A DNA stretch of 64,000 nucleotides from Pseudomonadota bacterium. GTDB taxonomy: Bacteria; Pseudomonadota; Alphaproteobacteria; Dongiales; Dongiaceae. The DNA lies in NCBI GenBank assembly GCA_021792365.1, contig JAJYUT010000005.1:186001-250000 (forward strand), read 5' to 3'. The notes beneath the pieces were generated by a model. The model saw nothing but the letters and a program-made list of their open reading frames with translations. It did no database searches and was not told the DNA's origin. The position numbers and the translations under genes were made by a program. Positions 40,176 to 45,269 of this stretch are shown piece by piece. The number at the start of each line of letters is the position of its first letter. Position 1 is the first letter of the stretch.

Positions 40176-41465
40176 ATGGCGAATGTAGCGGTCATCGGCT
40201 CGCAGTGGGGCGACGAGGGCAAGGGCAAGATTGTCGATTGGCTGTCGGAGCGCGCCGACGTGGTGGTGCGCTTCCAGGGCGGCCACAATGCGGGCCATAC
40301 GCTCGTCATCGGCAGCAAGACTTACAAGCTGAGCCTGCTGCCCTCCGGTGTCGTGCGCGGCAAGCTTTCGGTGATCGGCAACGGCGTGGTTGTCGATCCC
40401 TGGGCGCTGCTCAAGGAGATGGATACGCTGCGGGGGCAGGGCGTCGCGGTGACGCCGGATGTGCTGGCAGTGGCGGAGAACGCCGCGCTTATCCTGCCGC
40501 TGCACAGCAGGCTCGACCTGCTGCGCGAGGAGGCGCGGGGCGCGGGCAAGATCGGCACGACGGGTCGCGGCATCGGCCCGGCCTACGAGGACAAGGTGGC
40601 GCGCCGCGCGATCCGCGTGTGCGACCTGCTCGATCTGGATGCGCTGGACGGCAAGGTGCAGAACCTGCTGCAGCATCATAACGCGCTGCTGCGCGGCATG
40701 GGCGCGGAGGAGGTGAGCGCCGCCGAACTGCTGGCGCAGTTGCGAGACGTCGCGCCGAAGGTCGCGCCCTATATCAAGACCGTCTGGCAATTGCTCAACC
40801 AGGCGCGCAAGCGCGGCGACCGCATCCTGTTCGAGGGCGCGCAGGGCTCCATGCTTGACGTCGATCATGGCACCTATCCGTACGTCACGTCGTCGAACAC
40901 CGTGGCGGGCCAGGCGGCGACCGGCGCGGGCATCGGCGTCGGCGCCGTCGGCTACGTGCTCGGCATCACCAAGGCCTACACGACACGCGTCGGCTCGGGC
41001 CCGTTCCCGAGCGAGCTGCAGGACCAGATCGGCCAGACGCTGGGCGAGCGCGGCCACGAATTCGGCACCGTCACCGGGCGCAAGCGCCGCTGCGGCTGGT
41101 TCGACGCGGCCCTGGTCCGCCAATCGGCCAAGGTGGGCGGCATCAACGGCATCGCGCTCACAAAGCTTGACGTGCTGGACGGATTCGAGACGCTGAACAT
41201 CTGCGTCGGCTACGACATCAACGGCCAGCGCTTCGACTATCTGCCCTCGGCCGCGCATCTGCAGGCCGCCGCCAGGCCGGTTTACGAGACCCTCGAAGGC
41301 TGGTCGGATTCGACGCGGGGCGCGCGCTCCTGGGCGCAATTGCCGGCGACCGCCATCAAATACATCCGCCGCATCGAGGAACTGATCGAAGTGCCCGTCG
41401 CCCTGCTCTCGACAAGCCCGGAGCGCGACGACACGATCCTGGTGACCGATCCGTTTGCGGATTGA
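40176..41465 (+). CDS. purA: Adenylosuccinate synthetase
   Basis: A 429-residue enzyme that makes adenylosuccinate from IMP, aspartate and GTP in AMP synthesis. The P-loop [11 protein letters not shown] (residues 12-22) and the neighbouring GGHNAGHT are diagnostic. Further motifs are [14 protein letters not shown], the GAQG segment and [20 protein letters not shown] ends the conserved region. The ribosome site CGGAGAG precedes the ATG. It is the last gene of the hisZ-purA pair; a 336-bp spacer follows. Confidence 0.97.
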
Positions 41466-41801: not shown

Positions 41802-43826
41802 ATGGCGGACGATCAAATCCTGCTCGACGAGCGATACGAGATTGCAGCGGACAGGCGTCTGCCCAAGTTCGATTCGCCCGGCGTCGAAGCCTTCGCCGTC
41901 GACGATCGCAACGAGCCCGGGCGCCCGATGTTCGCGCTGATCGCGCCGGGGCACCTGCCATGCCGGCATCTCGGCCTCCTGGCGAAAAAGCCGCCATCCG
42001 ACGCACCGGTGCTGTGGCCGCGCGCAGCCGGCGTGGTCGACTGGCCGGTCGCGCGGGCGGAGAACGGGGCGGCCGTGTGGGGCCGCCGCCCGCTGCTCAT
42101 CTTCGACGCGCCGAAAGGCGAGCGCATGTTCGGCGGCGACGCGCCGCCGCCCAGGCCGATGACGGAGCCGCAACTGGCGCGCAACATCATTGCGCCCATC
42201 GTCATCGCGGTCCGCGAGATGAGCGCGCTGGGCATCCCGCACCGCGCGATCCGCCCTGGCAATTTGTTCTATCAGTCGAGCCATCAAGGCCCGGTCATGC
42301 TCGGCGAGTGCTTCAGCATGCCGCCCGGTTTCGCGCAGCCCGCCCTCTACGAGACGATCGAGAACGCGATCGCGGACCCCTATGGCCGCGGCCCGGGCAT
42401 CTCCTCCGACGACCTCTATGCGCTGGGCGTGCTGCTGCTCCAGCTTCATGTCGGGCGCGACCCGACCGAGGGCCTGTCCGAGGAGGAGATCATCTCGGCC
42501 AAGATCAGCGCCGGCTCCTTCGCCGCGCTGGCGGGGCGCGAGAAGCTCTCGACCTCCATGGCCGAGATCCTGCGTGGCCTGCTGAACGACCGCCCCGGCG
42601 ACCGCTGGACCTTGCGCCACCTCGAAGCGTGGAACACGGGGCAGCATTTCACGCCGACCATGCCGTATCTGCCGCAGCGTGCCTCGCGGCCGATCCGCTT
42701 CGCCGAAGGCGAATATATGAACAAGCCGGCGCTCGCGCACGCCATGGGGTATCACTGGCCCGACGCCACGAAGCTGGTCGACAGCAGCGACTTCGACAAC
42801 TGGATGAAGCGCAGCTTCAACGAAGACAAGGCCGGCGACGTCATGATGCGCATTCTCGGATCCGCCGCCGGCTCCGGACCGGCCGCCGCGATCAAGGACC
42901 GCTATGTCGCGCGCCTTATCATCTGGATGAACGCCCAGTCGCCGGTCTGCTATCGCGACATCCGGGTGAACGTGACGGGCATGTCGGCCATGCTGGCGAA
43001 CGTCCTCGACCAGCAGCCGCTGCTGAACCAGTTCGTCGAGTTGCTGCGCGGCCGGCTGCCCCAGGTCTGGCTGAACGAGCAGCCCACTCTCAATGCCGAC
43101 CAGCTCCAGGCCCGCCGCATCATGGAGGAGGTGGAGAAGCATATCGAGCGGCCCAATATCGGCCAGGGCATGGAGCGTGCGCTCTACGAGCTCGATTCAC
43201 TGGTGCCTTGCCGCTCGCCCATGATTGCCGATTTTTACGTCACCCACATTCGCGACTTGCTGCCGGCGATCGACGCGGCCCTGCCAGGTGTGGGCGAGGG
43301 CACCATCCCCATGGACCGCCACATCGCGGCGTTCATTGGCGCGCATCTCCGGCGCACCATCGATCGCGAGATCGCCGCCATCTCCCAGGCGACGGACGAA
43401 ACCGACCGCAGGATCGCCATTCTCCGCCTGCTGGCGCTGGTCCAGCAGGCCCATCCGAACCGCAAGCTGCCGCGCCTTGCCGATGCCCTCGTTGCCATGC
43501 TGGTGCCGGCGCTGACCTGCTTCCATCACGCCGCCTCGCGCACCGATGCGGAGCGGCGCATGCGCAAGCTGGGCAAGGATTGCGATCTGCTGGGCCTGGC
43601 GCTGCTGTTCGACCCGAACGGACCGGCGCGCAGCGCCGACAGCCTCGGCTTCGCCGCGGCCAGGAGCGCCTATGTCGCGCTGAAGCGCGAGGAGCAGTGG
43701 CTGGAGGGCGGGGGATTGACCAATCCCGTTCGCACGCGCCTGATCGGCCAGCGCGCCGCCGCCGTCACGTCCGCGTTCGTCGCGAGTGCGGCCATCGCGG
43801 CCTATAGCGTCTTCGCCTTGCTGTGA
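41802..43826 (+). CDS. Membrane-anchored pseudokinase
   Basis: A 674-residue protein. Residues about 1-290 resemble a serine/threonine kinase fold, but the key residues are missing. The catalytic loop HRDxxxxN is HRAIRPGN (near residue 147), losing the Asp. The DFG position is LGECFS, and no clear glycine loop or beta-3 Lys is visible. The helix F region SSDDLYALGVLLLQLHVGRDP still matches kinases. Residues about 300-640 are helical with no family I know, and a C-terminal membrane helix (VTSAFVASAAIAAYSVFALL) ends the protein. It therefore looks like a pseudokinase tethered facing the cytosol. It is 10 bp upstream of a small membrane protein and probably co-transcribed with it. Confidence 0.72.
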   Translation: MADDQILLDERYEIAADRRLPKFDSPGVEAFAVDDRNEPGRPMFALIAPGHLPCRHLGLLAKKPPSDAPVLWPRAAGVVDWPVARAENGAAVWGRRPLLIFDAPKGERMFGGDAPPPRPMTEPQLARNIIAPIVIAVREMSALGIPHRAIRPGNLFYQSSHQGPVMLGECFSMPPGFAQPALYETIENAIADPYGRGPGISSDDLYALGVLLLQLHVGRDPTEGLSEEEIISAKISAGSFAALAGREKLSTSMAEILRGLLNDRPGDRWTLRHLEAWNTGQHFTPTMPYLPQRASRPIRFAEGEYMNKPALAHAMGYHWPDATKLVDSSDFDNWMKRSFNEDKAGDVMMRILGSAAGSGPAAAIKDRYVARLIIWMNAQSPVCYRDIRVNVTGMSAMLANVLDQQPLLNQFVELLRGRLPQVWLNEQPTLNADQLQARRIMEEVEKHIERPNIGQGMERALYELDSLVPCRSPMIADFYVTHIRDLLPAIDAALPGVGEGTIPMDRHIAAFIGAHLRRTIDREIAAISQATDETDRRIAILRLLALVQQAHPNRKLPRLADALVAMLVPALTCFHHAASRTDAERRMRKLGKDCDLLGLALLFDPNGPARSADSLGFAAARSAYVALKREEQWLEGGGLTNPVRTRLIGQRAAAVTSAFVASAAIAAYSVFALL

Positions 43827-43836
43827 GGGACCGGCC

Positions 43837-44304
43837 GTGAGCAAGCAAGCATCCACCAAAGCCGCCGCCGCCCGGCCGAAAGGATTCAAACCGACCCTGC
43901 TGCTGATCCTGCTGCTGCCGGTGGCCGTAGTGATGGCGCCGCTCGCGATCGTGCTGGTGGCGGCGATGGTTCCGAGCTTCGTGGCGCGGCTGGTCGATAC
44001 GAGCCCGGGGCGCCACCTCACCTTCACGGTCTCCAGCTTCAACCTGATCGGGGCGCTCTATTTCGTGCATCAGATCTTCACGAAGGGGAACAGCCTGGAA
44101 GTGGTGACCACAGTCCTGCGGGATTCGATCGGCTGGCTCGCGGCCCTCAGCGGAGCAGGCTGCGGCTGGCTGCTGTTCCTCGCCATGCCGCCGCTGGTCG
44201 CCAAGATGGCGGAGGCGCAGTCCGCCTTGCGCATGCGCCGCGTACATCGCGACCAGAAGCAGTTGGTGAGCGACTGGGGCCAATCCGTCGCGACCAAGGA
44301 CTGA
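43837..44304 (+). CDS. Small multi-pass membrane protein
   Basis: A 155-residue protein starting on a GTG (MSKQASTKAAAARPKGF). A basic N-terminus precedes three probable membrane helices: TLLLILLLPVAVVMAPLAIV, VSSFNLIGALYFVHQIF and AGCGWLLFLAMPPLVAKM. The C-terminus is charged and cytosolic (ALRMRRVHRDQKQLVSD). I do not recognise the family. It stands 10 bp after the pseudokinase gene and before the rpoH terminator, so the two form a compact unit. A complex in the membrane is inferred from the anchor in the neighbour. Confidence 0.72.
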   Translation: MSKQASTKAAAARPKGFKPTLLLILLLPVAVVMAPLAIVLVAAMVPSFVARLVDTSPGRHLTFTVSSFNLIGALYFVHQIFTKGNSLEVVTTVLRDSIGWLAALSGAGCGWLLFLAMPPLVAKMAEAQSALRMRRVHRDQKQLVSDWGQSVATKD

Positions 44305-44327: not shown

Positions 44328-44366
44328 GCAAAAGGAAAACCCGCGGCCACACGGGACGCGGGTTTG
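44328..44366 (-). terminator. Bidirectional terminator between the membrane gene and rpoH
   Basis: AACCCGCG (44338-44345) pairs with CGCGGGTT (44357-44364). On the minus strand the stem is followed by TTTTCCTTTT, making a good rpoH terminator. On the plus strand only a short T-run follows. Confidence 0.8.
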
Positions 44367-44384: not shown

Positions 44385-45269
44385 CTACTGCGCCGCCAGC
44401 TTCTCGTCCAATGCGGCGTTGCGGATGGCGCGCTGGACCTTGTCGAATGCGCGCACCTCGATCTGGCGCACGCGCTCGCGGCTGATGCCGAACTCCTTCG
44501 ACAGGTCCTCGAGCGTGGTCGGCTCGTCCTTCAGGCGGCGCTCCGAGAGGATGCGCCGTTCGCGCGGATTGAGCAGCTTGAGCGCGCGATCCAGCAGCTT
44601 TTGCCGCCGTCCGAATTCCTGACTCTCCGCCAGCAGCACCTCCTGGCTGTCGCCTTCATCGACCAGCCATTCCTGCCACTCGCCCTCGCCATCCATGCGG
44701 ACCGGCGCGTTCAGCGAGTGGTCGGGCGCGGCGAGGCGGCGGTTCATGTCGACCACGTCGCTCTCCGCCACGTCGAGGCGCGTCGCGATCTCCTTCACCG
44801 TCTCCGGCTGCAGGTCGCCTTCCTCGAGCGCCTTCAACTGGCCCTTGATGCGGCGCAGGTTGAAGAACAGCTTCTTCTGCGCGGCAGTGGTGCCGATCTT
44901 CACCAGCGACCAGGAATGCAGGATGTATTCCTGGATGGCGGCGCGGATCCACCACATCGCATAGGTCGCGAGGCGGAATCCCTTGTCAGGGTCGAAGCGC
45001 TTCACGGCCTGCATCAGGCCGACATTGCCTTCAGAGATGACTTCGGACATCGGCAAGCCATAACCGCGATAGCCCATCGCGATCTTCGCGACCAGCCGCA
45101 GATGGCTGGTGACCAGCTTGTGCGCAGCCTCGGTGTCCTGATGTTCCTGCCAGCGCTTGGCCAGCATGAACTCTTCGCTTTGCTCCAGCATCGGGAACTG
45201 GCGAATCTCCGCGAGGTAGCGGGCCAGGTTGGAATCACTGACGAGGCTTGGCAGATTTCGTGCGGCCAT
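44385..45269 (-). CDS. rpoH: Heat-shock sigma factor RpoH
   Basis: A 294-residue sigma-32 factor. Region 2 is clear in [20 protein letters not shown] and the following [15 protein letters not shown]. The RpoH box [13 protein letters not shown] distinguishes it from housekeeping sigma factors. Region 4 has [20 protein letters not shown]. It directs RNA polymerase to heat-shock promoters and is degraded by FtsH in relatives. The start ATG at 45269 follows AAGGGGACGAT. It ends at a strong terminator. Confidence 0.97.

Follow-up and report, generated by a model that had tools for sequence, protein, structure and literature searches.

A protein kinase fold stripped of its catalytic residues, tied to the membrane and encoded directly ahead of a small membrane protein, raises the question of what such a pair could do, and whether the genes on either side of it, purA and rpoH, say anything about the answer. 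We encountered the pair on a contig from an alphaproteobacterium of the family Dongiaceae; the window, to which all positions below refer unless a genome is named, is the whole stretch of 64,000 nucleotides that was analysed.

The gene pair and its protein domains

The first gene encodes a 674-aa, C-tail-anchored pseudokinase (PK; 41802..43826, + strand, from an ATG at 41802 to a TGA at 43826), and after a gap of 10 bp comes the gene for a 155-aa polytopic membrane partner (SP; 43837..44304, + strand, GTG at 43837 to TGA at 44304). Two conserved neighbours give context and lie outside the module: purA, upstream of PK (40176..41465, + strand), and rpoH, encoding the sigma factor RpoH and convergent with SP (44385..45269, - strand; the name is transferred from an annotated Azospirillum thermophilum locus). 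These coordinates bear out the initial annotation, which had described a pair with this spacing beside purA and rpoH and had allowed that the frame might not be translated. The dN/dS values against a congener (G002) are 0.18 (PK), 0.31 (SP) and, for comparison, 0.07 (purA), so that PK and SP are both under purifying selection; third-codon-position GC is 0.88 in each. Judged by their sequences, PK and SP are constrained proteins rather than chance frames. Searches around the two genes for regulatory RNAs and promoters found none. Between the convergent SP and rpoH genes, a GC-rich hairpin with a T-rich stretch after it (window 44340-44355, minus strand) is terminator-like, yet the scan gave no more such sites than shuffled sequences did.

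The kinase-like domain of PK was delimited by profile, AlphaFold and Foldseek results to about residues 5-279 (41814..42638, + strand). The only Pfam match, to Pkinase, fell below threshold (25.4 bits; cut-off 31.7), and a profile search found protein kinases, the best being titin kinase (E 4e-10). The AlphaFold model, built from 69 homologues (mean pLDDT 91.0), has N-lobe strands, C-lobe helices to about residue 278, helices from 308 to 635 and a C-terminal helix at 642-673; its top Foldseek matches are PknB (E 2e-8, TM by target 0.67) and other kinases. Profile and model alike place the N-terminal part of PK in the protein kinase superfamily, with a predicted bilobal fold. Its motifs are FALI at beta3, HRAIRPGN (residues 147-154), M-L-G at the DFG position (LGECFS being residues 167-172), Asp204 in alpha-F and Arg268 in alpha-I. 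Among 132 non-redundant PK homologues, the DFG Asp is found in none (0/132), the HRD Asp in 2 and a beta3 Lys in 2 (Ile or Val in 112), and a conserved glycine-rich loop was not found in this set; PK itself lacks the VAIK Lys, HRD Asp and DFG Asp of active kinases. The initial annotation had called PK a pseudokinase and had named homologues retaining HRD/DFG as evidence to the contrary; with the catalytic residues missing in essentially every homologue, the designation stands. The HRD-position His is kept in 121/132, typically as HRA, HRS or HRN, the Gly of DFG in 128/132, the alpha-F Asp in 132/132 and the alpha-I Arg in 131/132. The PKs of Arenibaculum and Skermanella (L050, L052), which account for the two HRD Asp residues, read HGD, which puts Asp in the catalytic position, the DFG Asp still being absent.

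The helical domain that follows (residues 290-645; 42669..43736, + strand) carries the conserved pattern GxGxERxLY...PCxS...DRHIAAF. A helical part of some 340 residues with no known family had been claimed at the outset, and the searches agree: over about 350 residues (about 290-640) no Pfam family was matched, no enzyme family emerged from Pfam and PDB profile searches, and outside the kinase part PK homologues share no recurrent Pfam domain. An armadillo identity was rejected, the PDB profile matches being short overlaps with designed repeats, none of them significant alone. The residues most invariant outside the kinase lobes all fall within this domain: E458 (129 of the 132 homologues), R459 (128), Y462 (132), C470 (130), S472 (129), D505 (129), H507 (128) and D613 (131). 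Such a near-invariant set suggests that the functional centre of PK lies in the helical domain. The protein ends in a membrane helix at about residues 645-674 (43734..43823, + strand), delimited from homologue C-termini and the model; the proposed membrane anchor is borne out by the predicted helix at 642-673 and by a hydrophobic C-terminal segment in all 132 homologues.

SP was modelled by AlphaFold with a pLDDT of 91.6. A hydrophobic stretch at residues 19-53, broken at 33 and 44, is followed by helices at 60-83 and 97-147, and the long last helix terminates at a conserved WG motif (LVxxWGxxV). The broken stretch could be a hairpin, and the chain may cross the membrane more than three times; SP is a membrane protein, as the initial annotation had it, and the count of three helices given there may be too low. 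The N-terminus and the C-terminal helix of SP are both basic, which suggests a cytoplasmic location for the two ends; such a topology would need an even number of crossings. SP has no significant Pfam, profile or fold match; kinship to SLATT or MotA/ExbB proteins was considered and rejected on a sub-threshold match and the lack of a fold match.

Co-retention and distribution of the pair

We searched for the two proteins in 389 alphaproteobacterial genomes, sampled evenly. PK is present in 131 of them and SP, by search, in 130; in the sole exception (G276) SP was seen beside PK, and none of the 258 PK-less genomes has SP. The two are thus retained or missing together, and the proposed two-protein module, which a pair that never co-occurs would have contradicted, has SP in every sampled genome with PK. 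SP lies directly downstream of PK in 145 of the 155 PK copies examined, usually within 60 bp. Because the 131 genomes are related, they do not represent that many independent events, and most of the co-occurrence could reflect vertical inheritance of one operon.

More telling than this raw count are the cases, few as they are, in which the two genes persist in trans. In five of five tested Magnetospirillum-type genomes and in G255, adjacency has been lost and both genes have been kept; in two of these genomes, G763 and G764, PK still lies beside hisZ-purA and SP beside rpoH-rluD, which indicates that an ancestral block broke between PK and SP and that both halves were retained. In G765 (contig C132, L190) SP, unlinked from PK, follows ftsH in the same orientation at a distance of about 10 bp. 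From co-retention even where the genes are apart on the chromosome we infer an obligate PK-SP complex. Two points weigh against it: inter-protein coevolution is at chance level (Neff 103; the best coupling, PK664-SP22, falls in predicted membrane segments and is not significant), and two genomes of family f15 (G030 and G141; L192-L197) each carry three extra SP paralogues with no adjoining PK, among whose neighbours we looked for a common theme and found none. On balance, the sequences suggest that PK and SP very probably form a two-part inner-membrane machine, and we are highly confident that they work together. In a phylum-wide sample the PK family was found only in Alphaproteobacteria, the single match elsewhere covering only part of the kinase domain.

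Relation to described kinases and pseudokinases

A recent review describes seven bacterial families that consist of pseudokinases or are rich in them (PMC12599244), and by their descriptions the PK family is probably distinct from all seven and undescribed. EssB/YukC of type VIIb secretion is a membrane-anchored cytoplasmic pseudokinase with a non-catalytic scaffold role (PMC12599244); PK is likewise membrane-anchored with all three catalytic motifs degraded, but it has an additional helical domain, has no domain after its membrane helix, was found only in Alphaproteobacteria and has no type VII secretion genes among its annotated neighbours, which are serC, serA, hisZ, purA, rpoH, rluD or unrelated genes. 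The MviN pseudokinase domain (ActPs3; PMC12599244) also places a degenerate kinase fold at the membrane as a binding platform; it differs from PK in belonging to Actinobacteria and in being joined to a transporter part, and PK retains the His and Asn of HRDxxxxN. EssB/YukC and MviN may be regarded as functional analogues of PK, any kinship being putative. The nearest described family in lifestyle is the GLW pseudokinases, in which GLW replaces HRD and a poly-Leu segment has Leu or Trp at the beta3 Lys position (PMC12599244); PK has instead HR[A/S/N]IRPxN and FAL[I/V]. The DLHK and CP1 pseudokinases have no membrane segment, DLHK keeping the HRD Asp and CP1 being linked to a COG3899 ATPase domain, whereas all PK homologues have a membrane helix and have lost the HRD Asp. 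With PknB-type Ser/Thr kinases, its best Foldseek match, PK shares the fold; it differs in its lost catalytic residues, its helical domain and its terminal membrane helix.

PK matched no named bacterial pseudokinase family on the features tested. An anti-phage defence kinase (PD-T4-6, MADS6) was rejected: the best PADLOC match, of 26.6 bits, is confined to the kinase C-lobe, and MADS6 scored 24.7 bits where 460 were required. The initial view of the pair as an undescribed system is upheld in that the literature searched contains no earlier description of it and that Pfam has no match for SP or the helical domain. The main risk to its novelty is that the family may sit under another name among the 42 bacterial STK families of the O'Boyle et al. 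2025 atlas; the comparison made here covers the seven families that the review describes.

Possible role of the proposed complex

We regard it as about an even bet that PK and SP act together without catalysis, as a scaffold or receptor complex anchored in the membrane that keeps a client there. PK and SP would form one inner-membrane complex, with PK cytoplasmic and anchored through its C-terminal helix, and SP as the polytopic partner, its long basic helix with the WG near its end probably on the cytoplasmic side. The kinase lobe, without phosphorylation, would provide a rigid binding platform, and the conserved polar surface of the helical domain would carry the specific function, most likely to bind a protein client or a small ligand and to retain it at the membrane, much as EssB/YukC or the MviN pseudokinase domain does.

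The main rival to the scaffold or receptor role, and one we consider rather unlikely, is catalysis of another kind: like SelO or SidJ, PK would have turned its kinase fold or its helical domain to a new enzymatic use, and SP would bring that activity to bear at the membrane. The Asn of HRDxxxxN (Asn154) is kept in 129/132 homologues, the acidic residue after the DFG-position Gly (Glu/Asp169) in 122/132 and Arg151 in 115/132, so nucleotide or metal binding is conceivable in what we take for a scaffold, and the near-invariant residues of the helical domain seem more numerous than one would expect of a simple scaffold. The beta3 Lys, HRD Asp, DFG Asp and glycine-rich loop are nevertheless not conserved, and the helical domain resembles no enzyme family.

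A flagellar or motility accessory complex is a poorer account still, and we think it very unlikely. FlhA is present in 118 of 131 genomes with PK and in 105 of 258 without it, an association confounded by phylogeny, and in G130 a PK-SP-PK-SP array immediately precedes flhA, a MotA/ExbB-family gene and the gene for a sigma-54 activator; yet a third PK copy in that genome sits after purA, FlhA is absent from 13 of the 131 genomes, and in family f97 PK is found in 9 of 11 genomes and FlhA in only 2. Persistence of the pair without FlhA in f97 refutes a purely flagellar role and places the core role elsewhere; at most some paralogues have been recruited to flagella. The tandem pairs before flhA (L132, G130:C2:117786-137700) suggest one such recruitment to a flagellar operon.

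The neighbourhood itself proved to be a block of genes, serC-serA-hisZ-purA-PK-SP followed by convergent rpoH-rluD, repeated across many families; the hisZ, purA and rpoH names were checked against a family library, and serC and serA are what we take two conserved upstream clusters to be. Among 37 sampled families, SP is adjacent to PK in 34, purA lies upstream in 24 and rpoH is convergent in 22; in 13 no examined PK-SP copy lies beside purA, the other neighbours varying. In one genome (G116, L129) the gene immediately before PK is not purA but argG, which encodes argininosuccinate synthase, likewise an aspartate-condensing enzyme. An order so old and widely conserved means that adjacency to purA and rpoH is inherited ancestral synteny and a poor guide to function. 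Regulation connected with purine synthesis or heat shock, the nucleotide or stress link raised initially, is therefore not supported and seems to us highly improbable, the frequency of purA and rpoH beside the pair being offset by the purA-free families, by hisZ, serA, serC and rluD in the same block and by rpoH on the opposite strand.

More tentatively, and with less confidence than we attach to the scaffold or receptor role, the pair may be an ancient obligate inner-membrane system of Alphaproteobacteria that combines a dead kinase fold with a new helical domain, whose E-R-Y-C-S-D-H-D set would form a new ligand-binding or catalytic module, SP being the membrane output. To our knowledge, few bacterial pseudokinases that are widely conserved come with a fixed partner. 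The present pair occurs in roughly one in three of the alphaproteobacterial species sampled, among them Azospirillum, Magnetospirillum-type genomes and genomes down to 1.4 Mb, and has been kept over deep time, although neither SP nor the helical domain has a Pfam match.
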